A stretch of 64,000 bases of DNA from Closterium sp. NIES-65 (lineage: Eukaryota > Streptophyta > Zygnematophyceae > Desmidiales > Closteriaceae): NCBI GenBank assembly GCA_948144175.1, contig CANXME010002463.1, positions 124,001 through 188,000 of the forward strand, read 5' to 3'. Both the position numbers and the translations under genes were made by a program. Shown here one piece after another: positions 1,990 through 35,275 of this stretch; position 1 is the stretch's first letter, and each line of letters opens with the position of its first letter. A model generated the notes under the pieces. The model did no database searches and had not been told where the DNA came from. It saw nothing but the letters and a program-made list of their open reading frames with translations.

Positions 1990-2558
1990 ATCGGAATTCG
2001 GTCGTCGGAACGGTTTTGCCAGTGTCGTCGAGGGGGGTTGTCAGAGCCGAGAATGACGAGGCATGCGACTGACGCGCGTGCGGGCCCGCCAGCCTGGCCC
2101 AGGGCTGGGCCGAGCGCACGACCGCCACCCCGCAGCAACGCTCCAAGAGTGAACAGCGGCCCACGTTACCGGGTGGGGTCGGCGAACTGGCGACCCGTCG
2201 CGCGAGGGAAAGTAACCCTCGCACGAAGGCAGCCCAACCGTGCCACCTGCCCGCGAGGTCCTAGTAACCCATCGCGGCCTGACCGCACGGGCAGGCGAGG
2301 GCCGGGCGAAAAATCGGGGGCCCCTCGGGACACTTGACAATTTCGCGACCCATTGCGGTCGCGCCACGTGTTCGCCCGTGGCTTCGCAGCGCACGCATGC
2401 GAAATTTCGGACGATGCGAAATTAAAACATCTCGCATCTACCACCGCGATCCGCTACGAAAATCGATACGTGTCAGCCCTAGATGTCAGAATGTTCTTAT
2501 CTAGCCTGTAGTGGGGTGCTCTATAGCGAGTACAACCCTGTTAGGGTTTGCTATTTGT

Positions 2559-2681
2559 TGTCAGAATATTATGCTCTAGCCTGTAGTGGGGTGCTCCATA
2601 GCGAGTACAACCCTTCTAGGGTTTGCTATTTGTATCCCCATTCTTGCTAGTTCAACTCTCTTCTTCTTTCTAAATTTCACA
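2559..2681 (+). repeat. N1 5' LTR
   Basis: Starts TGTCAGAATATTATGC, ends AAATTTCACA and is followed directly by the tRNA-Met primer site. Confidence 0.9.
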
Positions 2682-2810
2682 TGCTATCAGAGCAGGTCGA
2701 TCCCCTTGGATCGATCCTGTGGGTGGGCTTACCACCTCGTTGCTTCCGCTGCAACTACTACTGCTACTCTCTGTGCCGCACGCCCCGTGGCGTGCGGCAG
2801 TTTTTCTTCC

Positions 2811-3000
2811 CGCCGTGCGCCCCGAGGCGCGCGGCGATTTTCTGCCCGCCGTGCGCCCCGAGGCGCGCGGCGGTTTTCTGCCCACGGTGCGCCCCGAGGC
2901 GCGCGGTGGTTTTCTGCCCGCCGTGCGTCCCGAGGCGCGCGGCGGTTCTCTGCCCGCCGTGCTCCCCGAGGCGCGCGGCGGGTTTCTGCCCCGTCACGCC
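2811..3000 (+). repeat. 36-bp tandem repeat in N1 leader
   Basis: About five copies of a unit built on CCGTGCGCCCCGAGGCGCGC followed by GGCGGTTTTCTGCCC. Each contains the hairpin-forming GCGCGCC/GGCGCGC type palindrome also found once in the leaders of Copia A and B. Confidence 0.8.
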
Positions 3001-3970
3001 GCGCGTAGCTCTCGGGAGGCGCTGCGACGGGCGACGGGGACCCGTGCGTCGCCCCCCCCCCCCCCCCCCGTCGCCGCTCCTATCGGCCCCGTCGCCGCCG
3101 CCAGCGGCCCCGTCGTCGCCGCCAGCGGCCTCGTCGCCGCCCTTGCACGGCCCCGGCCCCGCCCCGGCCATTTCCCCTCGCCTGTCGAGGCGACCCTCGG
3201 GGGGGCGCTTGGGGGAGGGGGGCGGGCGCCGCCCCTTCTGCCACCTGTTTTGGCGCCCTGGGAGGCCGCGCATCGGTCCCCCCCCCCCCCCCCCCCCCCC
3301 CTCTCTCCCCCCCGTAACCTCCCTACCCGCCATCCCGCCCTGCCCTGTGTTAGGGTTTGGGGGTGGCGAGTAGGGGGTGGCGGGTGTGTGGTCTCTCCTG
3401 CTCCTCCTCCTCCTCTGTCTCCCACTACTGCACCTGCCGCTGAGGGGGGTGGGTGTGTGGGAGTCGACGGAGTGGTGCTAGGGGGTGGGGTGTGAGTGAC
3501 CCTAGCGGTGTAGCAACGGGTGTGTGCCAGGGGGAGTGGGATAGTTTGGGGAAGCTGCATGGAGGTTGCCGACGTGTCGCCAACAGCACCTGTAGTCCGG
3601 GGAGTTGCTCCGGTAGCCCAGTTGTAGCCAGCTGTGCCAGCCGCCCGTGGGTCCGTTGCTCGTCTGCCGCTACTTTAGCCGCGGGGCCAGTTACTCCAGT
3701 ATTCCGGAGCGGTAGCCGCTGTGCCAGTGTGCCTCCTGTTGCCCGTGTGTCTGCAGCTTCAGCCGTTGCCTCCTATCTCCTCTCCTCTCACTCTCTCTCC
3801 TCCTCCTCACTTGCCCGTTGTGACTACCGCTAGCTTTGCTCATAATTGTGAACCTTAAACTATTGCTTCATGAACTTGTGCTCAGAATGTGTGGTGACAT
3901 TGTGATCCACCCTGAGCTTGTACTGCTTTGTTTGCTCTGCTGATTACACCCCACTTTGGCTATGGGGGTG

Positions 3971-4093
3971 TGTCAGAATATTATGCTCTAGCCTGTAGTG
4001 GGGTGCTCCATAGCGAGTACAACCCTTCTAGGGTTTGCTATTTGTATCCCCATTCTTGCTAGTTCAACTCTCTTCTTCTTTCTAAAATTCACA
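3971..4093 (+). repeat. N1 3' LTR
   Basis: Near-identical to 2559-2681 and preceded by the polypurine tract TATGGGGGTG. Confidence 0.9.
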
Positions 4094-5262
4094 TTTGTAT
4101 CCCCATTCTTGCTAGTCAAACTCTCTTCTCTCTTCTAACTTTTCTCATGCTATCAGAGCAGGTCGATCCCCTTGGATCGATTCTGTGGGTGGGCTTACCA
4201 CCTCCTAGCTTCCGCTGCTATTTCTACCACTACTCTCTGAGCCGCACGCCCCGTGGCGTGCGGCACTTTTTCTTCCCGCCGTGCACCCCGAGGCGCGCGG
4301 CGGTTCTCTGCCCGCTGTGCGCCCCGAGGCGCGCGGCGGGCTTCTGCCCCGTCGTTCGCCGTGTCGCCCTCTGGAGGCGCCGCGACGGGCGACGGGGACC
4401 CGCGCGTCGCCCCCCGTCGCCCGTCGTGGCCTGCGCGCCGCCCGTACAGGCAGCGCGCGGCCCGTACGGGCTGCGCCAGGACTGGCCTCGCCCTAGCCAT
4501 GTCCCGTCGCCCGTCGCGGCGCACCGAGGGCACGTGCACCGCCCCCCCCCCCCCCCCCCCCTTTTCCCGTCGCCTGTCGAGGCGACCCTCCGGGGCCGCG
4601 TGCGGGAGGGACTACCTGGGGGTAGGGGGGCGAGCGCCGCCCCTTCTGCCGCCTGTTTTGGCGCCCTGGGAGGCCGCGCGTCGGTCCCCCCCCCCCCCCC
4701 CCTCCCCCGTGACCTCCCTACCCGCCATCTCACCCTGCCAGTGTTAGGGTTTGGGGGGTGGCGAGTAGGGGGTGGCGAGTATGGGGGTGGCAGTTGTGCA
4801 TTCCTCCCTTTGCTCCTCCTCCTCCTTCGTCTCCCACTGCTGCAGCTGTCGCTGAGGGGGGTGGATGAGTGGGAGACTGGGGTTTAGGGTTTAAGGGGGG
4901 TGCATGGGAGTGGAGCTAGGGTTTGAGCAGTTGGCGTGTGCCAACCGTGTTAGGGTTTGCTATTTGTTAACTTTTCTCACTAGAGACGCTCCGCGCGCAG
5001 GCGAGTTGTGCGTCCCCTCGCCGACCTGGGCCAATGGACGCGAGGTCGTCGCTCCGCCAGGGCGGAGACGGGCCACCTGTGCCACTAGCGCATGCGCCCT
5101 CCGAGCCCTGCCGAGCCAGGCCCCACACCCTTAGGCGATGCTGAACGGCCCCACCCCCTTTTCATTGCGGAAGGTGGCTTCGCTCCTCATTTTCTCCTTT
5201 TCTCATTTTCCCAGACAGCTCTGCGCCTCCCCCTAGATCCGTGCTATCGTACCTTAGTCGAT

Positions 5263-8200
5263 ATGGAGCCGATCCCCGACGCCGAGAAGTCGGCGCCGAC
5301 TTGGGCTGACTTTCCCCTTAGACACCGAATGGGTCGCGGTCTCAGCTTCACCTTCGAGTGGGACGGCTTCCCCGCCCTTCGCGACCAGAAGAAAGAGTTC
5401 ACCGACAGATGCTTGGGATTCGCCATCAGGTGGGACTCAAGAAGTCGCGGTTTAGGGCGTCTATCGGTTCCGACTTCCTCTAGATGGGCGCAATAAGTAT
5501 ATGTCGGCGCCGTCGGGGGCGGATTGTCGCAGATTGTCGCGACTTCGTCCATGGACGTCGGTCGGCATAGCAAGCGTCGATCTGGTAGCGTTTGCTTATC
5601 TGCCATCCCATCATCCCTCATGCCCACTCGTGCGCCCAGGTACGCTTGGTTTTGCAATGAACTGAACGGCCAGAAGTTGTGGGTAATCGGAGTCGGCCCG
5701 CTTCGATCGGCCTTGAAGGCCGCAGACCATTCTTGCTTTACTACGGTTTTCGACACCGACATCGCCGCCATCCCGTTAAGCACGACGTGAGTTGTTTCCC
5801 CGTTGTCCAGTTATCGTTTTGTTTAGTCGGTCGCATCATCGCCTAATGTTGTGGTCGACGCCGTCGTGTATTGCTTGTGCAGCAGCGGTCCGCTTCCAGG
5901 GTCACACTGCAGCGTCATAGCCATCCTCTACCCAGGAGATCTGCTGAAGGCTGAGGGACAGGTCTGCAGGACCTCGATCCAGCACATCGACCCGCATACC
6001 GGGAAACTGAAGCACCGCGACGAGGCCGTACGCGTGCTGAAGTAAGTTGTGAATAGTCGTCGATTTCCCGCTTGTTATTCGCCGACCCAGGGTATCACAT
6101 GCTGACCGCCTTCCTTTACCACGATTCTCCAGGCTATTCCGCAAGGCAGTCCTGGCTGAGGTGGGGCGTCCCGGTAGGCAGTGGGACGGGGCACCGCCAT
6201 CACAAGCAGTGGTGGAGGACAGGCTTGCCGACTACGACCACCCTATCCGCGACGTGAGTTGCACGTTACACGTTTATCCATTAAGGAGGGTGCACGTTTC
6301 TGTATGCTCCGCTCACAATGTTATGCGTTTGTCGGTGTTGTATGCAGAAAGTGCCAGACAGAGTGTCGGACGAGAAGGTCGGCACCCGCATGCTTGCCGC
6401 GACGTCGTTCAGGTGGGTGGCCGAGCAGGTTGACCTGCTGACGGGCGAGAAGGGCCGTGGTGCGGTGAGACTCGAGAACATCAAGACAAAGGGGCTAAAG
6501 TCGTTGCGAGACAGCATGGTGGAGTACATCTGCAAGCGCATCGCCGAAAAACGCTATGCGGCACCGACATCACAACCCGCCGACAGTGTGATTGATGACG
6601 ACGGCGCGGAAATACAGACGGCGCCCCAAGCAGCAGTTGCCGCCCAGCATCAGAGGAACGCGAAGGTGTCCACGGAAGGAGGAAACGGTGGTGGAGGAGG
6701 CAACGCTGCGACAGGTGGAGGAAGGAAGGAAGAGGAGGAGTTGGAGGAGGATTCGGAGTTGGAGTCGGAGTCGGAGTCTGAGGAGGAGGCGGAGAAGCGG
6801 AAGGACAAGGACGAGGAGGAGGAGGAGGAGAAGGACGAGAAGGATGACGGCGATGAGGAGGAGGAAGGGAAGGATGAGGAGGGGGAAGGGAAGGATGGGG
6901 AGGGGGAAGGGAAGGATGAGGAGGGGGAAGGGAAAGATGGGGAGGGGGAAGGGAAGGATGAGGAGGGGGAAGGGAAGGATGGGCAGGGGGACGGGAAGGA
7001 TGAGGAGGGGGAAGGGAAGGATGGGGAGGGGGACGGGAAGGATGAGGAGGGGGTGGAGGAAGCGGTGGAGTACGAGGTGGATTTCGAAGAGGAGGAAGCT
7101 GCACTAGAGGCGGTGGGGTCGGTGGATGAAAATAACGAGGAAGCGGAGGATGGCGATTCGGGTAATGATACGAGGTCGGCAGATGGGGGGAAGGAGAAGG
7201 ATGAGGTCGGCATGGAGGCAATGACGGAAAAGGGCCAGGAGGAGGCGGCATGCGAAGGTGGGAAGGTGTCGGTCGACGCCGGCAAAGCGGCAAACACCAC
7301 GGGCGTGCAGGAGACGGGGGACGCTTCTGGTCGGCAGGGTAATGAGCTGGACGACGTCGAGCAGGTGCGACGGGAGAACTGGCTGTTGAGGGCGGAGAAC
7401 GCTCGGCTGGCGACGTTGCTCGATGCGGAGCAGGCTCGGCTGGACAGGTTTTTTGTTGGGATACATGGACTTGTCGACCACGTGAAGGAGTTGGCCGAGC
7501 AGGTCGACGACACCGATAAGTATGCGGCGGAACAGCTGCGAAACGCGACGGCGGCCATGTCGAAGACAATCACGGGCAACATCACCGGCAGCTTCGACGA
7601 AGCGTGGAAGACGATGAAGACCTTCGCGGAACAGGCGACGGCGTGGTTGGAGGACTTCGACAACCCGCAGGGTCGTGTGGCAGTTGCACGCGCAGTAGCG
7701 TTCGATGCGTTGGCCGAGCATGTGACTGGGGTGGTGGGCGAAGCGCAGCGGGGTTTGGAGCTGTACATCACGACGCAACTATCCGCCGCGCAGGTCAACA
7801 TCGCCACCGCTGTGACCACCAGGCTCCCCGTGCAGCCGCCACCACCGCCTCCGCCCACGCCGCCCGCCCTCCCGGAAGAGCTCTTGAAGTCGTTCAAGGC
7901 CGACATTATGAAGGCGGTGACGGAGGCCACCCAGCAGTCTTTCGTCGCTTCCGGGATGAAGATGATGGCCGAGATGGTCGGCACTGTGGCGCCTGGTCGA
8001 CGTGGGTCGTCGCCGTCGGCCAATGACGCCGATCACGCGCAACGGAAGACGGCCGACAAGCAGGTCCTGAAGAGGACGGGCGACGGAGACGACAAGGAGA
8101 GCGCGAAGGGCGACGCGAAGCGGAGCAAGGGATCGGACGGGAGCCGCGGCTCGAAGCCTGCGCCACAGAGCGTGGTCGGCCAGTTGAACACGAAGGCGGG

Positions 8201-10604
8201 GTGGAGGGTGATAAGGACGTCGAACACCAAGGGTGGCGGAAGCGGGACGGCAGAGAGTGGCCCTGCCGACGGGGCTGCCGCTAACGTCACCGCTCAGCCA
8301 GGCCCGCCTTTGCTCACCGAGAAGAGCCATCCTCAGGCGAGCGGTGGGAAAGTCATGACTGACAAGGAGGTCCCAACTGCTCAGGCGGCGGAAGATGGCG
8401 GCGCCGGAACCACCAAGGGACCGTCCGTCGCTGTGGCGGCCAAGGGCAAGACGAAGGCTGCTTCTGCTACGGTCGTCGGCACCACCAAGTGCCCTCCCCG
8501 TAACCCCCCTGCGGCTACCAGCGCGCCTGCCGGCCAGTCAGGTGCGACCAAAGATGGGGAGGCCCGTGCGCCCCCTCCAGCTCCAGGAGCCCTGGCTGCC
8601 GTCAAGGGCGGCGCGAAGGCTGCTTCGGCTAAGGGCGCTGCTCCGGCATCAGCTAAGGGGCCCCCCGGTGCTGACACGCTCAGGGAGATGCTCCGCCGCA
8701 TGGAGGCACATAGCAGGGACGTGCAGCAGCATCCCGTGGTCGACGCCGGCCTTGCCGGAACAACACGTCGCTCCGTCACTCCGCAGGTTGCCGGCACATC
8801 GTCCGGGGCCCCACCTGCAGCGCATCCGGTCGCCGCCCCAACGCCTGCGGACTCCAAGTCAGCGTTTCTGCGCGCCCATTTAGTCGGACGCAAAGCGGCT
8901 GCTCCACCGGTGACTCAGCAGGAACACGGCAAAAGCGCGACGACGACGTTGGTAAACGCGACCGCACCCTCACCAGGTGCAGCTGTGGTCGATGCAGCGG
9001 CAGAGAGGGGAGTGAGTGCAGCGCTAGCCACCGGCGGCCGCGCCGACAAGCATGCCGCACTCGCTGCCTTCCTGGCCCATTTTGATGCAGCAGAACGCCC
9101 TGAGCACGCCCCTGCACTGGCCATCATGGACACGGCGCATGTGGGGCCGTCGGCGACCCACGGTGGGGGGTCGGCGGAGCCGACGGCTGCAACGGGTGCT
9201 GTCGCCGAGAGTAGTGCGGGAGGGAAGGGGAAGGTCGACACCGGGAAAGGGAGCGCGGTCTCTTAGAGGAGCACGCAGGCGATGTCGGCGGGGAAGGAGA
9301 TGTCGGAAGAGAAAGGGAAGAAGTCGGAAGGGAGTCAGGACAAGAAGGGCGGCAAGAGTAAGCCGGGGAAGAAGGAGAAGGCGGAGGAGGATGACGAGGA
9401 GGGCGGCGAGGGAGATAAGGAACGCAGGGGGCATGGCATCCGCCAAGACAGATCCGGCGACGGGCATGGGTGGGTGCGCGAGATTAAGGTAAACGGACGG
9501 AATCGATACATCGGCAAGTCGAGGGAGAAGATGGAGTTGGCCTACGAGCACGCGATTGCGTACGTCGTCTACGACGGCTACGTGAGCAAGGTGCTCATGA
9601 AGGAGCTCACCGTCTTGAAGCCGGGGGAGTTGGAGAAATGGAAGGAGATGTGGGAGGAGGTCAAGTTCTTACCAACTGGGTTGTGGACGGTGATGTGGGC
9701 CAGAGGCTTGTGCCATCCGAGAGCAAGGTAAGACGGCTACCGACGCGCCGAGTTCTGTCGACCATGTCGGTGTCATTACGCTACAGTCGGTTTCGTTTTA
9801 ATGTGTTTGTGCGGCAGGATCGACGACATACTCGGCAGGTACCGTGGGTACGCAAGGTCAGGTGATGCGCTTCATGGGGTGCTCTGGCCGGCGATCTGGT
9901 TCCCCATCATCGAAAACACGGAGGAAGGCAAGGAGGAGACGGAGGCTCTCATGTCGGCGATGGTGAATCGCGTGTCGATGTGCGCGGCGTATGGGAAAGT
10001 CGCGGCGAGCGCGGCGTTTGGGAAGGTTGACGCGAGCGTAGAAGGGAATGCGGGAGAGAAGATGGGGATGGAAGGCGCGGAGGGGAAGGCGGACGAGAAG
10101 ACGGAGATGGCGGCCCAGGCGTTAGCGGCATCTGCATGCGCCCTCTGGTGCTTTGTGGAGACGGGAGCATCGTTGCTCGGTGCTGTGGGCGAAGGGAAGG
10201 CGGCGGCGATGGTGGCAGGTGCGGAGGAGAAGAGGGCCGAGGCATTCAAGAAGGTGATGCACGCGGTGATCGACTTAGCACGCAGTCGGGAGGCTCCTGC
10301 GGGGGAGGTTGCCCATAACGTCGCGCCATCGCTGCAGCGCCACGCAGTGGTCAGGGCCTTCGAGGAGGGAGTTGAGGAAGTCGAGGCCGACATGATCGCC
10401 AGAGAAAAGGTCGAGACCTTGGCGTTCTGGGGAATGTGCCCCGTCGTTGGGCCCAAGCTCAAAGAGCAGGGCATCGATGTGCAGTGTGACGCGAAGATGG
10501 AGTACGATATGGATCACAGGGGGAGGAAGGGAGAGAAGGTCAAGCAGGGCAAGGGCAGCAAGAGGAAGAAGGGCAAGGAGGGCAAGGGCAGTACAGATGC
10601 GTAG
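5263..10604 (+). CDS. Gene A1: companion gene of element 1, unknown function (six exons)
   Basis: I infer exons 5263-5429, 5640-5786, 5883-6041, 6133-6253, 6348-9727 and 9818-10604. All have GT-AG borders and compatible phases, giving about 1,586 codons. The ATG is supported by a 167-nt first exon of the same length in all three copies of this gene. Exon 5 has a Glu/Lys/Gly acidic repeat (about 6850-7060), a coiled coil (about 7340-7600, RRENWLLRAENARLATLLDA), a PPPPPPP stretch and Ala/Pro-rich linkers. Near 9470-9660 is a block, NRYIGKS...AYEHAIAYVVYDG, that recurs in A2 and loosely resembles AP2-type DNA-binding folds. The tail is Lys-rich. An in-frame TAG at 9264-9266 splits exon 5, and the same frame resumes with ATG at 9282. 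The protein could therefore be two proteins, a readthrough product or a pseudogene. No known family is recognised; a DNA-binding accessory factor is only a guess. Confidence 0.6.
6850..7060 (+). repeat. Acidic-repeat minisatellite within gene A1
   Basis: Repeats of 21/42 bp built on GGGAAGGATGAGGAGGGGGA encode alternating GKDEEGE and GKDGEGE units. The run is purine-only on the coding strand and preserves the reading frame. Confidence 0.85.
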
Positions 10605-11092
10605 TTGGCGGGCTGTGGTGTGCGGGATGCTATGGTATGGTTGGCACCGATGTTGTAGTAAATCTAATGACTTTTTTATCATAGGGCACGATTCTTCTTC
10701 GTTTCTGTTTGCTTCACTTTGTGATGACCCTAAACTCTACTGTTCATATTGAAACTTGCTAGCCGTCTTTGAACGATGAGCCTTGTCGGCGCATCTGTCG
10801 ACATCAATAAGAACATGCTACTCGGCGACGAGCTATAACTAGGTAAATGTCGACAGCCTAGCAACATGCAAACCTGCGAGACGTCGACATCTATCTGTGT
10901 TTTGATTAGTAATGAGCGACCGACTACATTTAACACGGCGGGATCAAGTAGGTTTGCAATGGCCTTGCTGTGGGTTGTTACAAACTAGCAGAACAACATT
11001 TGAAAAAGGGGGGGGGCGGGGGGGGAGGGGGGCTCAAAGTCTGCCACAGTTAACAGCATCGAACTACGCACACGCATATCCTACAAGCGCGC
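10605..11092. other. Convergent intergenic spacer of element 1
   Basis: Lies between the 3' ends of genes A1 and B1. Element 2 has an equivalent spacer of similar length (28391-28934). It contains several GTCGAC sites and a G-run near 11007-11030. No gene is seen. Both transcripts probably terminate here. Confidence 0.6.
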
Positions 11093-14000
11093 TCATGCTG
11101 ACTTCTTCCGCTTGGTCGGAGGACGGTGCACCGGAGCGGTCGGTTTGGCCGGTACTGTCGACTTGGCCGGTGCCGTCGGCTTCGCCAGGTCGGCCTTGGT
11201 CTTCGGCATCTGCTCCTCCCACGTGTCTGAAAACAAGGTTTCGACCCAATCACTCTGCTTCAGGTTGAGCGCCACAAGCGCACAGGCGAGGCGTAGCTTC
11301 GAGACCACCTTGGGGCCTAGCCCCTTGACTCCCATGCCAGCCTCTTTGGACAACATCGGTGACGTTCCCGGTTTGAGCACCGTGAGGGCATCGGCGAAGG
11401 TCCTGATGCCTGATGCCGCGATCCTGTGCAGTGTGTCGACCACGGCTTCGGTGTCGGCTTTGCCGTCGCTCGCGCGTAGCTGGCGCACCGCATCCATGAC
11501 CTTCAGCATGCGGCGCACCCTCTTGTTGAGTGCACCCTGCGTCGCGCCGGCGAGGAGGGTGTGGCGGTCGATGAACCCCGGCTCGGCGATCCTGTCGCAA
11601 AGCCGACGGGTGTCATTAGCGGTGATGGAGTTCCAGAGGCGCCAGGCGTCCCTCACGGTCTTGGCCTCCCGCCACGGTTGTACCACGTTGAGCTCGTAAC
11701 TAGCCTCCTCGTCCGTCTGTGGGGGTGGTGGGGGTTTGTCGTCCCCTCCGTCGGCGCCGGCTCCCATGTTGGCAGAATCCGCCGAGCCACCCTCGCTGGG
11801 AGATTGCACGGTAGCACACGGCGGGGCCTCCGGTACTCTCCGTGCTTCTGACACACGAAGTGCCTCGGTGAGACAGGTTATCTCGGCGGTGAGAGACGCG
11901 ATGGTGTCGTCGCGCTTCTCGAGCTCCTCCTAAAAGTCAATCTTCTCTTCGCGGCGCGCTCGATCACCTTCGTCAGCGTCGCCTTGAGGGATATGTTGTA
12001 GTACTCGGTGTCCATGCGGACAGAGATTTCCTGCAGCGGTAGGACAAAGACGTTAGCCGCGAGGTGGTTTGGAATGCCCTACATCCAGCTCGTCGTCGAC
12101 TTACCTGCCTGAATTTGGGTCGGGTCCCGACGCTTGTTGATCGTCTCGGTGTCGACCCGTTTTGCCCTCTGCTGGAAGAGGGGGATCCGGCAGAGCAGGG
12201 AGCCTTGGACGTACGGGTGCCATGGTGTGCGGACCAGCTTCACCGCTAGGTCCTCGGCGACGATGCGGCGCAACATCGCGAGTGTGCGCCAGAAGTGCAC
12301 CGCGGCTTTGTCGGCATCGGACCCCTCGGCAGCCTTCCCTTCCGCCTGCAATTCGTCACGTGTATTAGAAGTTCAGACACTGTCAGCAACACGACTCGGA
12401 AACAAGGATACGAGGGCGTTGACTAGCATACCGTCTTCAGCATGTCGTCGACGCTGGGGAAGATGTGCTCGGCGAGGAGCTTCAAGAGCTTATCGGAGGG
12501 CTCCACCCTGCTCTGGCCCAAGAAGTAGTCCTGCTTGTAACCAGAGTAACCGGCCTTCTTCATCACCACCCCCACCGGAATGGCGGTGATCTACGCTCGC
12601 GTCATCTTGTCGAGCGCCCAGTGACCCAGCTCCGCGATCTCGGCGCGCGGCGTGCCGTCGATGGCCAGCTCCTGGGCCCCTCCGGCTCGAGCGGCGTGCA
12701 CGTACCTCTTGCAGAAGACCCCGTTTTTGTCCCACAACTGCCGCGTACAGCGTTGGTGGCTTACCGTAGAGGGCTCCCCTTGGTCGGTGTCGTTTTTAGC
12801 GAAGAAGAGGTGCTTCTTGTACCAGCTCGCGCGTGTGCTGGTGTCCACCGGCGGAATGAGGCGGATGCCGTGAAACTGGCCGATCTGGTCGAGGATGAAG
12901 TGCAACCACAGGCCCGTCTCGCCGACGGCGCACAACTCCACTTTGAGGTGCCGCGCAGCGTAGCTCTGCTGCAAACGCGCATCCTTGGACGCCTTCGAGT
13001 TCCGCGCAGCGATGACCATGACGACCGGCTGGTTCTCCGGGTTCACCGACGAGGTGCTCGCCAGTCGGTACAAGAATATGTCGGGGAGCGTGATCTCGCG
13101 GATGCTTGCGCCGCGCAGGAGAGAATGGTAGGAGAGTAGCGTGAGCACCTTCAACAGCAGAAACCGCCACAGCGTCTGCGACGGGCCCGTACCCCGCGGG
13201 TTCCAAGCCTTAGCCGCCCACGTCGGCAGCACCCTGAACATGATCTGGCGGAACTGTTCTGCGGTGTAGGTATCGCCAATGGTTCCGCGACGCCGATCGG
13301 TGCAGTTCCTGCCGACAATGCCGAGGGTAAGGGGCATTTAGGGAGACGTCGACACAGTACATGACAACAAGAGAGTGGTCGACAGAGGTTAAACAAAAAC
13401 TCACTTGAGGTCCCGCTCGTTCTTGGTGCGGATCATGAACCGCACCTCCGACCTGACCACCGATATCTCACGCATGATGCTCAGGTCCATCTCCCAATAT
13501 ATCCTCACCTCCACTCTCGCCGCCATCTAGCATGCCTTTATGCGCCCGAGAAGCGTGTGCACCGTTGTAGATTGCACAGGCTGTGTTCCTGTGGCGTTGT
13601 CGCCCTCCTTGCTGGACTCGGCATCGAGCTTCATCTCCCGAACCATGTACTTCACGTATGCGCGAAGCCGGGACGGGGTGACCCTAGGGCCGTGCAGCCA
13701 CACGTGCGACCGGGGGACATCGGCCTCTTGGTCCCAGTTCTTCTTCTTGTCGTCCTGGATGTAGTGCCCTATCTCGTCGACGCGCTTAAGCCTGTACTCC
13801 TAGGGAAGCTTGTTGCGAATTTGCATCAACATCTTCGCCGCCCACCTGTTGTAGTGGTAGATCCACGAGGTGTACTGCCTCAGCGTGCTGTTCCTCTCCA
13901 CGGTCTGCAGGTGGCGTAGGGCGTCCAAGACGAGCACGTCGATGGTCGCGTACACCATGTCCTCCTCGACGAAGTCTGCTACCCTCCACTATTCGCGTGG

Positions 14001-14426
14001 CACCGACAAGTTCTCCTGGTCGGCATCCTCGTCCTGTTCGAGCAGATCATCTATGTGTTCAAGTTCCCGCCTGAGCCGTTCTTCCAAGGTGCGCTGACTA
14101 GTGCTACGCGGCGGACGCTCGTTGTTTTCGTCATCGCTTTCCTCCTCCTCCTCCTCCCCCCCATCCTCCTCCTCTTCGACCTCAACCTGGTTTCCAGAGC
14201 CGGCCGGTGCCGACGAAGTTCCTGGCCGTCCATTTCGCGTCGGATTCTGTTTCTTTTTCTCGTTGAACTCCCCGATCGGCGGTGGGGGAATGTCCTTGGT
14301 GAACTCCCCTTCCGAAATCTGCGTCAGCTGGTCAAGATCGTAGAGTAAGAGGAGCGTCTCTTCCTCGGTAGATGTCGGACTGTGGTCGGTGGATGGTCTA
14401 GCGTCAGTCATGTCGACGTCGGCCAT
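11093..14426 (-). pseudogene. Gene B1: Crypton-like tyrosine recombinase, four in-frame UAG codons
   Basis: Inferred exons on the minus strand are 14426-13405, 13308-12432, 12345-12105 and 12030-11093, with GT-AG borders and one continuous frame to a terminal TGA (about 1,025 codons). The N-terminus is acidic (EEEEDGGEEEEEE). A helical core-binding region follows (NSTLRQYTSWIYHYNRW). In the catalytic domain I see LLRG as the first Arg, HAAR as the HxxR motif, and GHW. Where gene B2 has the nucleophilic Tyr (HYLTTIP), B1 has TAG (12591-12593). Other in-frame stops, also TAG, are at 13800, 13527 and 11930. The C-terminal extension has a coiled coil and a PTAPAK-rich basic tail. A stretch near 12000 resembling the start of B2's last exon (EISVRMD) is out of frame, so at least one indel is likely. 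Either this is decaying or UAG is read as sense. Confidence 0.7.
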
Positions 14427-14770: not shown

Positions 14771-14895
14771 TGTCAGAATGTTATGCTCTAGCCTGTAGTG
14801 GGGTGCTCTATAGCGAGTACAACCCTTCTAGGGTTTGCTATTTGTATCCTCATTCTTGCTAGTGTAACCCCTCTTCTTCCTTCAAAATTTTCACA
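14771..14895 (+). repeat. N3 5' LTR
   Basis: TGTCAGAATGTTATGC...TTTTCACA, followed directly by the primer site. Confidence 0.9.
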
Positions 14896-16293: not shown

Positions 16294-16334
16294 ATGGGTT
16301 GCGGCTGTTGTGCTCTAGGGCGACCTCTGGCCAT

Positions 16335-24567: not shown

Positions 24568-27500
24568 ATGAGCCGCGAAATGAAGGCGCTTAGAGCTGGG
24601 TCGAAGGAGGCCGCCTCCTGTCCGGCCATCATCTCTGTTGCGGGAGCCACGGTGGATCTCCCCCCCGAACAGTGGAGGCTGCTCGCAGAGGATAAGCATC
24701 CTCTCACGGCCCGTCTGTTCGACTTTATCACCGGGTGAGATCCATGCGTTCAAGTCCCTGACTCTTATATGCACGCGTTGTTTATGGTCGCGGTGTTTAG
24801 GCTGTTCGCGACATGTCAGCGGTAGTTACTCGTAGGCAGTGCAGGCCGCGGCATAACTCCGCTGTGCTTTTGGGTCGCGCTGTTACTGTTTGAGCTTTTC
24901 CCCGCCTTCTTTTACACCGTCCCGCACAGCGTGATTGTCCGGAGGTATCTGGAGAAGGAGGTGCATGAGCACGTCCGAATAGTGACGAGCGGTGTTGTCG
25001 CGGACATAGTCGCGGGTCGGGATGAAGCGGTCCATGCCTTTGGCGGTTTGATGGAGTGCAGCCTGGTGGTTTTCTGCATCTGGTCCGAGTGATTTTCCAT
25101 TGGGAGTGTTCACTTGTGCAGGGATTGCACTCGTTTAAGTGGTTTAACGCGGTCGTCAATGGCACGTTCAGGGACGTGGTCGACAAGAAGAGCTCGAACG
25201 CGAGCATGCTCATTATGCTACACCCCGACCACTTGTCGCTTGACGGTGACGAGTGGAACACGCGGTTCGTTCGCGTTGCTATTCCCACTGGTGGTGCGGA
25301 ACACGTCACCGCGGCTGATGCGATTGTGGAGTGAGTACCGCGTACTGGTTTATCATCAGTACCACGTTCATTTCCGCTCCGGGGCTCATGTCGCTAACCG
25401 TGCGCTCGCGTGGATATGTATGTGCTTTGGTGCAGGTGGTTTCAGGGTCGCGTCGACGAGGATTTTGCGGGCGGCTCCATTCAGTTCACCCGCTCCCGCC
25501 AGCTTAAGGATCCCGAGCGTCTGTTGGATCTGGTACGTCTGTGCTGTGTACGTGTTCTCGATGACCGCCAATAGTTGCAGTGGTGCTAACAAACCTCATG
25601 AAATGTTTTCGAGGACGCGACGTCATTCCGCGGCTCATGCGGCAACATCGCTTGTCTGTTCGCGTTCGACAAGATCATTGCACAGTTGGACGCGGTCGCT
25701 GCCAGTGGATCCGGGCCGCAATTCTCGAGGCCAACCGCGAAGACTCTGAATGCACTGAGGCATGAGGCGTACCAAACCGCCGAAGAGCTCGCGTTCAGCT
25801 TGAGCGTGGATATGACGCGACCCATGCACGGCGGTGAGGCTGAAGGGGCTGAAACGGGGAAGGTGCAGAAAGTGGCTACGGGTGCACAGGTTGCTGACCA
25901 TGGTGTTCTCGCTCTCACAGGTGCCGCTGGTGTTTCGAACCGCGGAGGTGCTCGAGGGGGGACGGTGGTCCACGCTGATGACGACGTGGCCGAGGATACC
26001 GCGACAAAGGGTGCAACCCGCGATGAGGCTGACCTCGCTGTTGCGCGTGAGGGGGAGGAGTCGAGCGAGGAGGAGGCGGAGGAACATGTGGTAGCGGCCG
26101 CGGCATCCAGCAGGCCCACTACCTCCGGCAAGAGCATCAAGCACCTCGCGCAGCACTTGGCCCCCGGTGCTGGAAGCGCGGGCCCGAGTGGTGAGGTCGC
26201 GGGCAAGAGTCCCGTGACAGGTCCGCGTGATCACGCGTCCCTGTCCTCGTTGCCATCGCATAAGCTTGCTGCCGAGATCCTGCAGCTCGACTGCAGGCTT
26301 GCAGCGCTGGCCGAAGAGAACGCACAGCTGAAGAAACGCCAGGAGTCGGGGGTTGGTGGGGTCGCGGTCGTGGGCTCTCACGAGCTTGCGTCCGCGCTTG
26401 ATAATGCGGTTCGGGTGTTGAAGGAAGAGGCGAGGGCGATCGCGCAGGAAAGAGCGGCACTGGTCGATACGCGTAACCAGGAGGCGTTGGTGCTGGGGAG
26501 AGTGGACGCGAGGCTGGGACAGCTGCAGGGGGTGGTGACAGACTCCATGGAAGCCGCTCAGAAGAAGCTGACGGACGAGGTTGCGTGGAAGATCGACAAC
26601 ATGTCGACCGCGGTCTCCGCGACAGCAGAGCGGGCGATCACCACCAGCGGGGTCACGAACGCGTTGCACACCCTAATCGCGCTCGTTGGAGGAGCCCCCC
26701 CGCCGCGCACGGATAATGAAGGAGCGGCCGCGACGGAGATTGCCGAGCTCGGGGATGCAGAGCATGGAAAGCGGGCAGCGGTTGCAAAGGCGGAGAATCA
26801 AAGGGGGGCGAAGAGGCAGAGAGGTTCCCAGGCAGCGGCCGCGGTGCGCAATCCGAGCGTGCAGGACATGCTGAAGCAGAAGTGGGGCGCTGCATCGCGA
26901 GGTCCAGCACCGCCTGGTCAACCGGGCTCGAGCTCGCGCTCCATCCCACATGGAGAAGCTGCACCCAAACCACCGGGCCCTGCCGGGGCAACCGCGACAG
27001 TGACAAGTACTGTGGGTCGGGGCAAGGGTAAGTCGGAGGATGGAGAGGCGCCGGCTGCTGCGGCAGAGGGCAGGCAGACCACGCTTGCACCCGCTCGTGC
27101 TGCAATCGCCGCGGGACATCTGCACAGCGCACTGGCATCTGCAGGTCCTATCGCAGCCTCGGTCGAGGGCAAGGCGGAGAAACGCGGACGGGGTGGCAAG
27201 AAGTTGCCCACTCCACCCGTGTACACGATCGACGAGGACGATGCGGATGAGGAGCTGGAGGGTCTCGTGAGCAGGTGGGTCGAGGCGGGCGACGGAGGAG
27301 AGAAGGGTGGGGAGGCCGCGGTCGACATTTATAGCGCCGGAGAGAGCGCGGACGAGCAAGACGGAGACGCCGTGATTGTGGAAGGTGGCACAACGGGAGG
27401 ACATGGTGACACCGCCCCCAAGCGCAAGGGCTGCGGCATCCGCGCTCCACCCAGGGGCGGGCCCGGATTGGTTTCTGAACCCCATCTAGGGGGGAAGAAG

Positions 27501-28390
27501 CGATGGCTCGGACACGGCGACCTCGAAGACCTGCAGTACAAGACCGCGATCGCGATGTATCCCTATGACGGGAAGGTCGACCCCGGGCTGAATTTGAGCC
27601 AGAAGCAGATCCGAGAATGGGCCGCGGACCTGTCCATCGCCGAGGGGTTACATACGGGCCTCTTAATCACCATGCACTACCGCAACCTCGTGGCAAGCAA
27701 GGACAGGTGAGCTGTGCCAATCCACCATCACCTAGTGCGTTCATACGATATCACATGGATCGCTCCCGCGTAGTCAGTCGCTTTGGTTTGTAATCATGTT
27801 CTGGCCGCTCCAACCCACTGCGTGGCAGGTGGCACCGCATGTTCGATTCCTATCGCGGGCTTACCAAGCCCGGAATGCACACCACCAACGTGATTGCATG
27901 GGCCGCGGTGGTAGGCAAGGAGGCTGCATCAGAAGAAGCGGATCTCGGCGACGTGGAGCCGACGGACTACGCAGGAGCGATCGCATGCGCCATTGCAATG
28001 GTGTGGGAGGTCACTCGCGGTTCTAACGTCACTGCCGCGGCGGATAATGGAAACCTGGCTGCGCGTGCAGCAGGTTGCTATGGAGAGCGAAGCCGTCTCT
28101 TCCCTGTAGTATCCGCATACATCATCAATGCGGTGCGGAAGCACAATAGCCGCGAGGAAGATGAGCCACAGGCTGTCCCAGACCCGAAGGCGGTCGCCGC
28201 CGCGATCGTGTCCGGAGTCGTGAACGAGGTCATTGCAAAGTCTCGCGATCTCAGGCACATCGAGTTGGCCGCCCGCGAAACGGTGGACGTTATCATCACC
28301 TGGTGCGACTGCTCGGTGGCAGGGAAGCAGATGGAGTCCTTGGGTTTGTACCTTGCCCTGCCAAAGGATCGTCTGAAGAAGCGCACTTGA
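24568..28390 (+). CDS. Gene A2: companion gene of element 2, unknown function (six exons)
   Basis: Inferred exons are 24568-24734, 24930-25065, 25122-25330, 25436-25532, 25614-27706 and 27829-28390, all GT-AG with compatible phases. They give about 1,087 residues ending in TGA, with no internal stop. Exon 1 is 167 nt, as in A1 and A3. The intron before exon 6 falls at the same place and phase as in A1 (AR|IDDILGRYRGYA versus DR|WHRMFDSYRGLT). Exon 5 has a coiled coil (about 26260-26640, LAALAEENAQLKKR), Gly/Ala/Pro linkers and RGAKRQRG, a possible nuclear-localisation signal. A block RWLGHGDLEDLQYKTAIAMY, followed by PYDG, corresponds to NRYIGKS...YDG in A1. I recognise no family. Conservation next to a recombinase in two elements argues for a role in transposition. 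Confidence 0.65.
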
Positions 28391-28478
28391 GTGCGTGTAG
28401 TATCGCGTAGCATGTGCACAGCCTGTCCGCCATGCTTGAGTTCTACTCGCGGTGGATTGTGCTGGTGCCTGTAGTAAA

Positions 28479-28521
<43 letters not shown>

Positions 28522-28934
28522 CGCGCGCGCGTGTGCGTGCGTGTGTGCGCGTGTGCGTGTGCGCGTGAGCACCTAGTGTTTACATGTGGAACAATATGCG
28601 AAGGTTTGTAGGATTCAGTGGGTGCGTGTTTTTGCGCGTGACATTTTAGTAGTAATCTGCATTCGTCTCAGGTATTCCCACACATTATCATTGTACACAC
28701 TACGACGCGAACAAGCTTTGTACATTAAGCAACAGCAGCACGCAATTAGCACGGCCGCGATGTAAATCAGCACTATCTGACAGCGAAACAACAACAGCCC
28801 GCGAGCAACACGGCCGCGTTGTAAATCAGCATAATCTTCGCGTAAACAACAACACTCGCGGTCGATTATAGGGACCCATAACATCGCACCCGAAGACGGT
28901 GATATCAATACGAACAACAGCGGGGTCAATCCAT
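28391..28934. other. Convergent intergenic spacer of element 2
   Basis: Lies between the A2 and B2 stop codons and contains the GT/GC microsatellite. An imperfect repeat includes GCACGGCCGCGATGTAAATCA and its near copy ACACGGCCGCGTTGTAAATCA at about 28749-28830. No gene is seen. Confidence 0.6.
28481..28567. repeat. GT/GC dinucleotide microsatellite
   Basis: A (GT)n run passes into (GC)n and then mixed GTGTGC units: alternating purine-pyrimidine DNA with Z-DNA potential. Confidence 0.95.
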
Positions 28935-31239
28935 TTACTGCAAGTCTGGCATGAGCGCACAGTACTGGGGCCACGCGACCGTGAACTCCGAAGCGGGAAG
29001 AGAGGCATCGATGAGACGGTCGCGAACAAGCATCCATTTCACACGCAACTGAACCTCCACCGGAGAGCCCTTCTTGAGCTGGCTCAGTTCCATGTCAACA
29101 CTCTTCTTCTTTACCGCGATCCCTTCCGATACACCCGACATGCCCACAGCACCTGACATGAGGTCGAGCTTGTCGAGCACTACCGCGATGTCGTCTCCTT
29201 GCTCCACCCTGTGGGCGATGAAGTTCATGATTCGCTTAACACGGTTTATCGCGTTCTGGCCGCCTCCCTCCTCTCCAATGAGCGCGGCCATTCGCGAAAC
29301 TGCGCCGCGGGGTTGGGCCAGAAGCGACTCTAGACTCTCGAGGATCAGCGGGTGCGTTGTCTTGTACAGCTTCCATCCGTCTGACGGTTTGGTGGCGTTG
29401 ACCCATGGAAGGACGATCGCGTCCCGAATCGTCTGTTCCCTGGTGGGCGCTGCGGCTTTCTTCCGCGTCCCCTGCTCGGTGGGACCTGTGGCATTGGTCG
29501 TCGCGGCCGCGGCTCCAGGAGTGGTTGCCTGGTTCGGAACCGCGGTCGGCCCTGAGCTGCTCACGGTGAGCCGCGACAGCTGGGCCTCCAAATCATTCAC
29601 GCGCTCATCCTTCTCGGCCAGTTTCCGATCGCGATCCTCCAGCAGCCCCTCCAGCTCTTTCACCCGTTTCTGAGTCGCGACCAACTCTAGGCCTAGTCTG
29701 GTGTTGTCAGCTTGTGAACGCGTGAAGTACTCAGTGAGGACGGTCACTTGGTTCTGCGCGTCCATTCTGGTACTCACCTCCTGCATGGGCAGAAAGCGAC
29801 CGCGAACTTGTTATGGTTTGGCATTGACATCACGGAAGAAAGATAACGCGACCATTCAGTACTTACCGCGGGCTGGGTCAGTGTAGGTGTGTTGCGTTGT
29901 ACTATGGCGAGTTGATTTGCCAATGAGACATCTGCAGCCCACGACGCAAACTCCTCTGTCTGGCAGAGCGGGTTGTTGACCACGTACGGGTGTCACGGCT
30001 GGTGGATGTAATACATCGCCAGGTCTTGCGCGACCGCCATCCTAGCGTCCCCATCCAGCTCCTTCAGTATGTTTAGCCCCGCGGTGTCCTGCTTCTCCGG
30101 CTTCTGCGTTTCCACCATCCTGCGGTTGTAATCCTTGCACTGTGACAATATAAAAACAAGGCAGTGAACGCTGTGCCAGGGTGGTATGTGAGATGCTTGC
30201 GGTCGCGTATGTGCGGACCACACATACCTGTTGCTGTCCTTTGTCCGTGGCGGCCCATGGGAAAATGTGCTTCCTAAGTAGCTCATCCAGCTTATCGTTG
30301 ACCGGAACAGTTGCGCGACCCAGGAAGTAGTCACCGTCAACCCCGGTGAAGCCCGCCTTCAGCAGCACGACCTCCCTTGGAATGGTTGTGAGGTAGTGCT
30401 TAGTCATCACGTCGATGAAGCGCCAGCCCCCCAGCCTCGCCAGCTGATCCGAAGGCATTCCGTCCGCGGACACGTGCTGCGCCCCCTCAGCCCTGGTCGC
30501 GTGAACCGCACGCGAGCATGTGATTCCCGCGTCCTGGAGAATTTTCGCCGCCCAGTCGTGATGAGTCGTGGGCGGTATTTGCTTCTCGTTGCCCGCGCGA
30601 AGGGGGAAGAACAGATATTGATCGTACCACGTGGAGGGTTCCGTGAAGTCGAGAGGGGGGGCTATGTTCTCGTAAAGGATGGGAACCAAGTCGTACACCC
30701 AGTGCAGCCACAGCAGCGTCGCTCCGACCGCGCACAGCGTCCAATCTATGTGCCTCACAGCAGATATGTAGTTGAGCGAGAAGTCTTTGTTTGTCTTGCC
30801 CGTCCTGCACGCGCAAACAAACATGAACGCGTTTCTAACTGGATCGGTCTCCGATTTTGCGCCTAGCTTCCACATCATCATGTCAGGCAGCTGCAGGTTT
30901 CTGATCGTGCATCCGCGGGCCAGAGTGTGATGACCGAGCACGGTCATCGTCCGGATGCAGAGGTCGCGATGCATTGCCTGCGTGTATGCTTTCTTGGCTA
31001 GTGTGAAGCTGGTCAAGATCGCGTCCATGCTGGTCTTCCTCATCATATGCTTGAACTCGTCCGGGGTGTACGTGTCCGCGGCCGTGCCCTGATGGCGATC
31101 CATGTGTTCCCTGCGCATGGATTGGGACGATAGTGCGGGTGTTTGTGGACGCGGGATTGTCAGGCATTAAACGAGTTCACTGAGAACGTATACTTACGCG
31201 ATAAACCGCTTGTATTGGTCGCGTACTTGAACGCGGACC

Positions 31240-31500
31240 TGTCAAAATCACTAGGTAATTGAGAGTAGAAACGTGGGGCCTAGGCTTAGTAGCCTAGGCC
31301 CTAACTTAGTATCGAGCGGGTTTTCACCTAGGGTGAGAGTCGAGTGAGTTGAGAGAGAAATTGTGAAAAGGTGGTTTCACTACAGGTTCAAGGGTACATA
31401 TAGCATAGAAACAAAATAAGGTGCACCACCAACAAAAGTTTACATAACTACACTAACTACAACTACAAGCAATTATAAAACATGACAAAATATTTCGACA
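31240..31500 (-). repeat. 3' LTR of the 31240 element
   Basis: TGTCAAAATCACTAGG...TATTTCGACA, 261 bp. Confidence 0.92.
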
Positions 31501-32229
31501 CGCCCCCATAATGCTTGTAGGTAGGTATGTAGTTACAGCAACAGCAGGTACCCCTACCATCTCCTCACCCTCCTCCTTCCCCTCCCCCACACTGCTGCAG
31601 AAGCAGCAGAGAAAGGGGGAAGAGAGGAGAGGTGGAGGGACGGCTGCTTGTTGCCTCACACCTGCCACCCCGGTACCACTCCCCCTCCTCACCCACATCC
31701 TCACACCCTCCTCCCCCAGCGGCAGCTGCAGCGGTGGGACTGAAAGAAGGAGGAGGGAAAGGGAGAGAGTTGACCCCACGCTCCAACACCCTCCACCCCC
31801 ATACCCTCCTCCCCACGGCTGCAGGGAGACAAGAGAAAGGGGGGGGTGGGAAGGAAGAAAGCCGCAGAGCGGCGAAGAGGCGTCGGTGCAGATGGGTCAG
31901 GGGCGGCAGCAGGGAGTGCTGGGGCGGAAAGGCCCGTCGCGGGCCAGTGCCACGGGGCGCACGACGGGTAGAATAAAAGGGCCCGATCGTGTGCCTCGGG
32001 GCACACGACGAGCAGGGCACCATCGTGTGCCACGGGGCGCACGATGGGCAGTAGAAGGGCACCGTCGCGTGCCACGGGGCGCGCGACGGGCAGGGGGAGT
32101 CACACGCCCGTGGGCGGGACAAGGTAAAAATAAAAAACCGTCACGCGCCCTAGGCGCGCAACCGTAAAATCTTAGCAGCGGAAGTAAAGCGGGCCCACAG
32201 GCCAGGACGAACACTAAGCTCCGATAACA

Positions 32230-32490
32230 TGTCAAAATCACTAGGTAATTGAGAGTAGAAACGTGGGGCCTAGGCTTAGTAGCCTAGGCCCTAACTTAGT
32301 ATCGAGCGGGTTTTCACCTAGGGTGAGAGTCGAGTGAGTTGAGAGAGAAATTGTGAAAAGGTGGTTTTACTATAGGTTCAGGGGTACATATAGCATAGAA
32401 ACAAAATAAGGTGCACCACCAACAAAAGTTTACATAACTACACTAACTACAACTACAAGCAATTATAAAACATGACAAAATATTTCGACA
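32230..32490 (-). repeat. 5' LTR of the 31240 element
   Basis: Near-identical to 31240-31500, with the primer-like site directly outside it. Confidence 0.92.
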
Positions 32491-34366
32491 GGACCCAGAT
32501 GCGACACTCTGCAAAGTCGCGCAGCAGGTTCAGAACGGGCTTCCTGAAGATCGCCCCGTCCAGCTTGATGAGCAGGTTCAAAGCCTTGAGACGCCCCATC
32601 AGCATTGCTGGGGTGCACTGGCGTCTCTTCTTCAAGGTCTTCTGCGGCCGCTTGAGTGTGGCCATCGTGTCCGCCTGCGCGACTGTCTCGTTCGCGAGGA
32701 AGGTCACGTATTTGCGTAAGCGCCACGGATTCGTCTCAGGGCCGTGGAACCACTGCTCGTCGCCCTCCGCCATCTTCCAGTCACCACCCATGTTCTGTTC
32801 GAGCGCGGCCCCAATCTCGTCCGGGTTCGCGTTTCTCAGCGCGGCCTCATCACCAAACCTACCCGCGTCCAGTTTAGGCAGCTCGTGGGCCATGAACCGC
32901 TTGTACTCGTTGGCCCAACCGCGATACTTCTTCAGCGTGGCCTCCGAGACACCGTAGAGGATTCCGTAGCACATCTCTCGTTTCGCGGCCGGCGTGTCGT
33001 CCACACCTAGCCTGTTCCAATCAGCGATAGGGACCTCAATGTCCCTCCGCGTACCCCGCACCCGTTCGTTGTCTTCCGCCTCCTCCTCGTTGAGCGCGGA
33101 CAGCGAGTTCGATAGGTAGTTTTCGTCATCGTCATTCCAACTATCGTCCGCATCGTCAGCGCCGTCCTCGTCATCCTCATCGCTTGTCCCCTCGCTCCCC
33201 TCCCGGGAGCCATTGCGTGCCGTGTGCGGCACTACATCGACTCTCCGCCTCCTTATACGCGGTCTATTAACTGGCCCGTTACCTGACCCGCCGTTCGCGA
33301 TAACACCGCTACCCCTGCCGCCGTTACCTGTCACCCCATGCGCTCCCTGCCCGTTCGCACTATTCTTGTTTGCTCCCACACCTGTCGCACGTCCTGCGCT
33401 CGCTCTCCCACCCCGTCGTATCGCACCTCTCCCTCTATCCGCGTTCCCTCTCTCCCCTGTCCCTCCTCCCGCGTTCCCCCTCGCACCCGTCCCTCTTCCC
33501 CTTACCGCGTTTCCGCTTGCACCCGCTCCACGCCCCGCGTTCCCCGCGTTTGCCTGTGGTTGCCCACCTACACCAGTCGCGTACGCTACAATCGGATGCG
33601 TGGGGGTGCGGATGTGGACGTCGGGGTTTCCGGGAAACAGTGAGTTCAGGTTCCATATTGGCGGCGAACGTGCACGCACGCGTGCATTCATCCCCGCTCC
33701 ACCATTCACCGCATGCCCTACACCACCGGCAACTACGTTCGATGATGGGCCGTCTGTTCGCGCTCGTGTGTCCAAACCGACAACTAATGCATCTCTAGGG
33801 TCTGGCGGGGCTTGCACAGCTGGCTGGCTTTCCGGATGAATCGCGCTGGGGAATGGTGTTGACGGCGCGACAGGAGGCGTCACTACAGATGCGGGTGCGT
33901 GCACCATGGGGTTTGGTTGAACGCCGATGTACCCGTACATGAATCCCACGTTCGAGTACTGCGGCCCTACGAAGCCACGCACAGGCATCCCAAAGAGCTG
34001 GCTACTGGGCACGGACGGTGGCGCGTCCCCATTACCCGGTTGATTTTGTAACGCGACCCCCGCTGCCGCAAACGGTATTTGTGGCCGCGGTGCTAGGTGG
34101 AGCCCGTTGACCAGTTGCTGTGGGTGAAACGTGGGCGTCCTGGACCCAAAAACCACTGGCTGCCCGTATGGGGTGCTCCATGCGGGGTTGAGCGCGTTCA
34201 CCCCATGCACGGGAGCGGTGGGTGGTTCGGCATTATGTATTTGATGCGCGGTTGTGTTGCCCGAAGCATTGACGGAGTCGTGAAGTATTGGCGCCGCGAC
34301 GCGATTCACGGTATGCATGCGGCGTGCGAGGTTGCACCTACTCGTATTCACCGTGTGCGTCAACAT

Positions 34367-35275
34367 GATGCGCGGTCACTATTTGTCCACCCGGGTGTGA
34401 CTTAGACGCGTCTACCTCGCGACCGATGTGCTCGCGGACATTCGAGCGCGGCACACAGCGCGGCCGTGATACTGGTGTCTGGTGTATCCCAGTGGGTCGT
34501 GAGGGGGTTGAGCTTGGTGTGCAACTGGCGATCGGAAAGTGGAAACTGTGGGCGTCCTCGGCGTAATGACCGGACACTGCGTGGACGTGCTTGACACGTT
34601 ACCGCGATCGCGCATCGTCCAAACGAACACACAGCTGTGTGGCTCGTTCAAATTGCGGCACGTGTCAGCCGGCATGGAGCCTACCAGATCGTGCCAGCTG
34701 TAACCGAACCGGGTCTGGCTGTGCGCTTGGCGAACCTATGCTTGTGCGAATTTTGTTCGCGATAAGTTGCGAGAGAGAACAACCAGTCGTAGCACTCCTT
34801 TGGTGTCGCGAACTCGCGGTTGCATGCGCGGGATGTCCCGCTCGTCAATGTTGCCGACCAATCACGTTCGTTTCGCGCCGAGCCGCGCATGCATCGGCGC
34901 GTAAGAACGAGGTGGGTTCTTTCGGTTTTCTGGGGTCCGCGGAGCTTTCGGTGGCAGCCTGGTGGGTTTCACTCAGCCACGCAGGGCCGCGCTAGGTCCA
35001 AACCTGGTGGGATCCTGGGTGGCCGACTTCGCCCCACGCTCCCCGCGATTTCTCCGCGCCCCGTGCATCCCAAGGCGTGGGCGGGGTTGTTCCCGAGCCG
35101 CGCCGTATGAACATACCAGAGCAGGGAGGCGTTGCCTACACGCATCTCCCTGCTGATGTAGACTGACGGCGGGTCCAGCGCGTTCGTTTTCAGTTCATCC
35201 GTCGTGGCGCAAGACGATTCCACATGGTGCACAACGGTTATTAAGCGTCTCCGTTTTGCACCTTGACGAACAAGA
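34367..35275. other. Right arm of element 2 / region left of Copia A
   Basis: No coding domain is seen. CGCG-rich to about 35110, so probably the B2 promoter and right arm. About 35110-35275 is more ordinary and continues at 42765 beyond Copia A. Confidence 0.4.

Follow-up and report, generated by a model that had tools for sequence, protein, structure and literature searches.

Starship captains and other fungal DUF3435 recombinases are tyrosine recombinases that move large DNA elements. In oomycetes, the elements CryptonF and CryptonS can carry an additional gene for a C48 (Ulp1) peptidase (Kojima and Jurka 2011, PMC3212892), and in Arabidopsis the VANDAL/Hiun elements encode the second protein VANC (PMC5735166). 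We describe two elements, F1 and F2, that lie in a stretch of 64,000 nucleotides (the window) from the desmid Closterium sp. NIES-65 (contig CANXME010002463.1, positions 124,001 to 188,000) and that each consist of a tyrosine recombinase gene, B, and a convergent gene of six exons, A. They belong to a high-copy two-gene Crypton-like group in which the partner genes are exchangeable and both genes are open in one copy or more. Like the oomycete elements with C48, they combine a Crypton/NDC10-type tyrosine recombinase with an extra protein gene, and no reverse transcriptase was found; unlike them, they reside in a streptophyte, have convergent genes with introns and carry family words across the element. 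As in VANDAL with VANC, the second protein has conserved and variable regions, and a short element-specific word has accumulated that differs between the related elements.

The first-pass annotation of this DNA had considered such an element undescribed. Titles and abstract openings of the PubMed Central records listed on Cryptons, tyrosine recombinases and Closterium transposable elements showed no description of such an element, no green plant appears in the host table of PMC3212892, and the word Crypton is absent from the main text of PMC10407611, on these Closterium genomes. Two-gene Cryptons as such, on the other hand, were already known from the oomycete CryptonF and CryptonS elements with C48 (PMC3212892). 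The two convergent multi-exon pairs of that annotation are present in F1 and in F2, with stop-to-stop gaps of ~488 bp (A1/B1) and ~544 bp (A2/B2). Its boundaries had to be moved: a comparison of copies places F2 at 23410 to 35118, with the right end at 35118 instead of 35275, and F1 reaches past the proposed core of 5263-14426 to ~2022-17383. The family-specific DNA words, the exchange of A and the true element ends had been overlooked. The features of the elements are as follows.

2022..17383: F1, whole, with nested long terminal repeat (LTR) material at ~2430-4983 and 14772-16292; comparison with loci L038, L030-L036 and L039
5263..10604, + strand: gene A1, six exons (5263-5429, 5640-5786, 5883-6041, 6133-6253, 6348-9727, 9818-10604); sequence
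11093..14426, - strand: gene B1, broken, catalytic part at ~12426-13335; similarity to B2
23410..35118: F2, window copy, whole, nested LTR insertion included; ends common to the fetched regions where present, flanks unrelated
23410..23904: left terminal region of F2, first letters CAGTCCATCCGGGCCCTGGTGG, with CCTGGTGG/CCACCAGG units; sequence and copy comparison
24568..24734, + strand: A2 exon 1 (167 nt); spliced model
24930..25065, + strand: A2 exon 2; spliced model
25122..25330, + strand: A2 exon 3; spliced model
25436..25532, + strand: A2 exon 4; spliced model
25614..27706, + strand: A2 exon 5, mostly low-confidence, predicted coiled coil; spliced model and structure prediction
27829..28390, + strand: A2 exon 6, part of a predicted helical C-terminal domain; spliced model and structure prediction
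28935..29780, - strand: B2 exon 4, C-terminal part; spliced model
29867..30139, - strand: B2 exon 3, with a single in-frame stop in the window copy; spliced model
30228..31110, - strand: B2 exon 2, core of the recombinase with the catalytic K, HxxR, W and Y; residues, and NDC10_II match of the spliced protein in Pfam
31198..34366, - strand: B2 exon 1, N-terminal part, interrupted by the nested insertion; spliced model
31240..32490: short LTR (TRIM-like) element nested in B2 exon 1; 5-bp target duplication GGACC
35105..35118: right end of F2, GTATGAACATACCA in the window copy, GTATGAACATCCCA in other copies; copy comparison
53832..55307, + strand: third A gene, a remnant of another F1-like lineage; sequence comparison

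The pairing of A and B recurs throughout the genome to which the window belongs (an assembly of 874 Mb in 2400 contigs). A DNA query with A2 had at least 40 matches (40 of 75 candidates scored) and one with B1 at least 45 (40 of 294 candidates scored); chance occurrence was ruled out for both. The co-conservation of the two genes that had been proposed from the window holds across these places. More specifically, for 34 of 40 B2 core matches an A2 or A2b match of the same orientation lies no more than 16 kb upstream (in 22 cases at 3.30-3.54 kb), and for six there is none; B2 was in turn in the list for at least 26 of the 40 A2 matches and at least 10 of the 23 merged A2b places. For F1, a last exon of the A1 type was found beside at least 22 of 40 B1 matches, 20 times at 1.16-1.65 kb. 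These pairing counts are lower bounds, as 40 of 70 or 75 candidates were scored and internal deletions occur. The idea that A is a host gene captured by chance was rejected, since dozens of loci show it together with B in this arrangement.

Three of the 18 B1 places that lack the A1 type were inspected (L031, L032 and L034), and these have an A of another lineage, the P0122/P0129 type. The B1 genes there are ~95% identical to the window copy, the DNA match is lost beyond a point ~70 bp past the A stop, and P0122 is 48% identical to A1. The presence of distinct A lineages beside nearly identical B genes implies that A is exchangeable; judged from these alignments, it behaves like a cassette swapped between elements. 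A comparison of F2 with its relative L037 likewise speaks for exchange: the protein identity was 77-88% for B and 37-54% for A, so that in this one comparison the recombinase is better conserved than its partner, as in VANDAL with VANC (PMC5735166).

The assignment of B to the Crypton/NDC10-type recombinases, made earlier from motifs, is supported by Pfam: the spliced protein of the four B2 exons (28935-34366) matched NDC10_II with an E-value of 1.8e-12, and B1, which is 33% identical to B2 over 239 residues (E 1e-47), gave 5.3e-6 at 26.2 bits, just below the cut-off of 26.3. The catalytic residues R, K, H-x-x-R, H/W and Y are kept in most F2 B proteins. In the alignment K, W and Y are present in 14 of 14 B proteins; the HxxR region is covered in 12, all of which have H and 11 of which have R. 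Of the nine proteins aligned at the first catalytic R, six have it, the other three being of the F1 type; the window B1 does carry it (LLRGASIRE). A Pfam scan of six A and B proteins or pieces, covering these proteins and not the remaining element DNA, detected no reverse transcriptase domain, and a DIRS-type retrotransposon was rejected on this ground. GCR1_C, the C-terminal domain of CryptonF (PMC3212892), gave no match in B when B2 and the C-terminal piece of B1 were compared with Pfam at E-values up to 10. The VANDAL transposase is of the Mutator type (PMC5735166), whereas B is a tyrosine recombinase without a Pfam match to the MULE (Mutator-type) transposase. Unlike Starships, the elements described here measure 10-11 kb and have two genes as a rule; variable cargo was not noticed in them, and their Pfam match is NDC10_II. 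The B2 core had no sequence match in the PDB, the structure model of B had a mean predicted local distance difference test score (pLDDT) of 34, and in a search with B2 residues 455-1070 all 32 listed matches were from Closterium. The TRIM-like element in B2 exon 1 (1251 bp, LTRs of ~260 bp) is missing wherever another fetched F2 copy covers this site; a related insertion occupies a different place within B of the C418 copy.

The window copy of A2 (24568-28390) has no in-frame stop and A1 has one, in exon 5. In the copy of F2 on C1798 both A (1103 codons) and B (1304 codons) are open, and each A exon there differs from its counterpart in the window by a net length divisible by three. When ten F2 copies were projected onto the C1798 copy, a procedure that hides insertions, six A and five B frames were free of stops, some of them with deletions. 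For A the median pairwise ratio of nonsynonymous to synonymous substitution rates (dN/dS) was 0.43, from 41 of 45 pairs, and for B it was 0.40, from 44 of 45, leaving out pairs with dS <=0.02, gapped codons and stop codons. As the first-pass annotation had it, exon 1 is 167 nt long with a GT donor at all three A places (5263, 24568 and 53832), the last of which is indeed a decayed copy. The conservation of introns it had reported holds between A1 and A2 for the phase of four of the five, whereas intron 2 differs. The sequences themselves are hardly alike (a single blastp match, 25% over 113 residues, E 6e-4; N-terminal profile comparison E 0.087, not significant by itself), and their homology therefore rests mainly on layout and intron positions.

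The product of A was unrecognised before and is so by Pfam, with no match better than E 2. In structure prediction its N-terminal region is poorly matched, its middle is of low confidence and includes a coiled coil (predicted helix at residues 415-503), and its C-terminal domain is helical. The last has no clear fold match, but was modelled only within the larger A model, and a new fold is not implied. The N-terminal region gave weak fold matches to the Ulp1/C48 family; from this modelled resemblance, A may be a very diverged version of the known C48 partner gene. At 1,100-1,600 residues and without recognisable C48 sequence in Pfam and profile searches, it differs from the C48 gene of the oomycete elements (PMC3212892). 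A reading of the A1 segment NRYIGKSREKMELAYEHAIA as AP2-like, made by eye, had no Pfam support. In protein searches all 53 matches listed for A2 and all 54 listed for A1 (~8000 candidates scored in each) were from Closterium, the strains across the A1, A2 and B2 searches being NIES-53, NIES-64, NIES-65, Naga37s-1 and Yama58-4; such searches need shared five-residue words, and distant relatives outside Closterium could escape them.

Each of the two superfamilies has a CpG-containing word of its own, present in great number in coding and non-coding DNA alike: CGCG in F2 and GTCG/GTCGAC in F1. CGCG occurs 18.9 times per kb in F2 versus 5.4-5.8 in neighbouring sequence, and GTCGAC 2.05 times per kb in F1 versus 0.4-0.5, where the neighbouring controls began at 17000 and 16300 and hence included the last part of F1. 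A better control of 18 flanks gave means of 7.2 CGCG per kb and, over all flank DNA, 0.66 GTCGAC per kb; its outliers C1995 (CGCG 19.6 per kb) and C1967 (GTCG plus CGAC 23.5 per kb) lie at another F2 copy and at an F1 relative, respectively. The excess over dinucleotide shuffles is greatest in spacers and introns. In the F2 A-B spacer CGCG stands at 3.9 times its expected number (z 6.1), in the B introns at 4.3 times (z 4.9), and GTCGAC was found three times versus ~0.1 expected in the F1 spacer and likewise in the F1 B introns, which were placed by eye. Under synonymous-codon shuffles CGCG is raised in A2 (z 4.7) and B2 (z 6.2), and GTCG and CGAC in A1 (z 3.3 each), whereas GCGC, CCGG and ACGT are not (z <=1.3). 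The elements are also rich in CpG, with observed/expected ratios of 1.06-1.12 in nine of ten F2 stretches (the tenth, 0.91, contains non-element DNA) and 1.05-1.06 in eight F1 loci, versus a mean of 0.87 in the 18 flanks (range 0.47-1.18) and 0.71-0.79 in three copia-like elements. L037 has 15.3 CGCG per kb although most of its A part cannot be aligned at the DNA level; in the aligned B part 27 CGCG sites are common, 10 are confined to the window copy and 7 to L037. In VANDAL the words are 9-mers, mainly in non-coding tandem arrays (PMC5735166); those of F1 and F2, by contrast, are short CpG words, CGCG and GTCGAC being palindromic, and are raised in exons too.

The ends of F2 were derived from ten regions fetched from the genome. 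F2 is common to all, in some with internal deletions or lost ends, and the flanking DNA is unrelated. The left end is CAGTCCATCCGG at 23410; together with the right end listed above it is visible in five copies, and the right end alone in three more. The two ends have only CA in common (the left end is TA in one copy), which may set F2 apart from the oomycete CryptonF and CryptonS elements with 5-6 bp (PMC3212892) and from the 4-6 bp direct repeats at Crypton ends, and neither terminal inverted repeats nor a multi-base target duplication were found in the five two-ended copies and the three with the right end only. After CA the target sides read GCTCCTTC, TTTCATAC, GCTCTTCG, GTTTCTTC and GAGCAGGG, most of which appear to resemble the CAGTCC of the element itself. 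A head-to-tail F2 array is located at C1769:2611487-2656212, where one strand carries six A2 matches at intervals of 5.9-10.4 kb; three are partial, and the three full ones lie 10.42 kb apart. The single tandem junction that was read, ATCCCAGTCC, is simple, end joined to end, and such head-to-tail copies are as expected for a recombinase that uses circular intermediates. The right end of F1 at 17383, ...GGTATATCATCCCCTAAG, resembles that of F2 and is firmer than the left end near 2022, which follows from comparison with related loci. A look-alike of the F2 right end is found 60 bp upstream of F1 in L038.

The explanation that we favour, and to which we give about an even chance, is that F1 and F2 represent two superfamilies of large Crypton-like DNA transposons in Closterium in which A helps the element in a sequence-specific way, perhaps against silencing. 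B would excise the element as a circle and insert it by a crossover within the shared CA, at sites similar to its left end. Either A by itself or A together with B would dimerise through the predicted coiled coil and bind the family word along the element, marking it as self; the most likely effect would be protection from methylation and silencing, like that given to VANDAL by VANC. A itself has no Pfam match to DUF1985, unlike VANC (PMC5735166), and its anti-silencing role is putative. Several observations weigh against this explanation. Under synonymous shuffles GTCGAC itself reaches only z 1.9 in A1, and it is missing from two short F1 stretches (5000-5262 and 14427-14770). Between F2 copies, single CGCG sites are kept no better than several other CpG words (retention in non-coding DNA: CGCG 0.894, TCGC 0.917, CCGC 0.919, ACGT 0.894, GCGC 0.828; in coding DNA: CGCG 0.900, GCGG 0.907). 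Within F1, and likewise from F2 to L037, the word stays the same while the A lineage changes; it is thus not tied to A alone, and B as well could be its reader. Finally, A is not generally the faster gene: between F1 and its C1967 relative the last exon of A is 80% identical and the B core 66%, which is why the idea of a consistently faster A was given up.

The words could instead be a by-product of mutation or methylation context, or the compositional signature of another host, unrelated to the function of A. The CpG in both words, the CpG richness of both elements and the lack of special protection of single word sites fit such an origin, which we nevertheless regard as unlikely considering that two related elements sharing one nucleus have different words, that the words are enriched beyond both kinds of shuffle (dinucleotide and synonymous-codon), the second of which GCGC, CCGG and ACGT fail to exceed, and that L037 retained the word while most of its A part became unalignable. 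A role of A as an accessory recombination factor, acting in end binding, synapsis, target choice or excision control and not against silencing, would agree with the regular convergent pairing, with the like constraint on A and B, and with the view that the Crypton recombinase acts at short terminal sites (PMC3212892). This we hold to be quite improbable: the words are spread throughout the element instead of being gathered at its ends, which is not what end binding calls for, and differing A lineages beside nearly identical B genes would be odd for a protein closely fitted to B. Somewhat unlikely, yet to be taken seriously in view of the fold matches of its N-terminal region, is that A is a diverged protein of the Ulp1/C48 fold (SUMO/NEDD8 protease), a cousin of the oomycete Crypton C48, that would act as enzyme, decoy or scaffold on the SUMO/ubiquitin-like system of the host; the words would then be caused otherwise, and the searches of A returned no C48 sequence match.

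The remainder of the window contains three copia-like retrotransposons, recognised by eye at 35400-42300, 43850-51000 and 57000-63900, which are mostly 81-96% alike over 300-nt stretches (families D10-D16) and whose CpG ratios lie below those of the adjoining Crypton-like elements; a reverse transcriptase was seen by eye in a frame of a copia-like element neighbouring F1/F2. At ~55900-56500 many GGTCGACCACC-like units adjoin the third A remnant and may belong to a retroelement and not to F1. An inverted repeat at 43144-43731 has 225-bp arms that are 98% complementary and a 138-bp loop. Between F1 and F2, long open frames at 18052-21415 (+ strand), leucine-rich-repeat-like by eye, are probably a host gene, and a 13-bp tandem array, GCAAGGTTCGGAA, is present at 22420-22640.

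In a wider sense we suggest, tentatively and well short of an even chance, that sequence-specific self-recognition and anti-silencing arose within the Crypton-type transposons of the algal sister group of the land plants, independently of VANDAL and VANC in flowering plants, with A swapped as a cassette and the element, including its codons, rewritten to carry the word. If A indeed reads the family word, self-marking by a word spread along the transposon would have a second, independent example, and this one would lie in the algal class that is closest to the land plants. It would, moreover, make testable how a mobile element distinguishes its own copies from the host.

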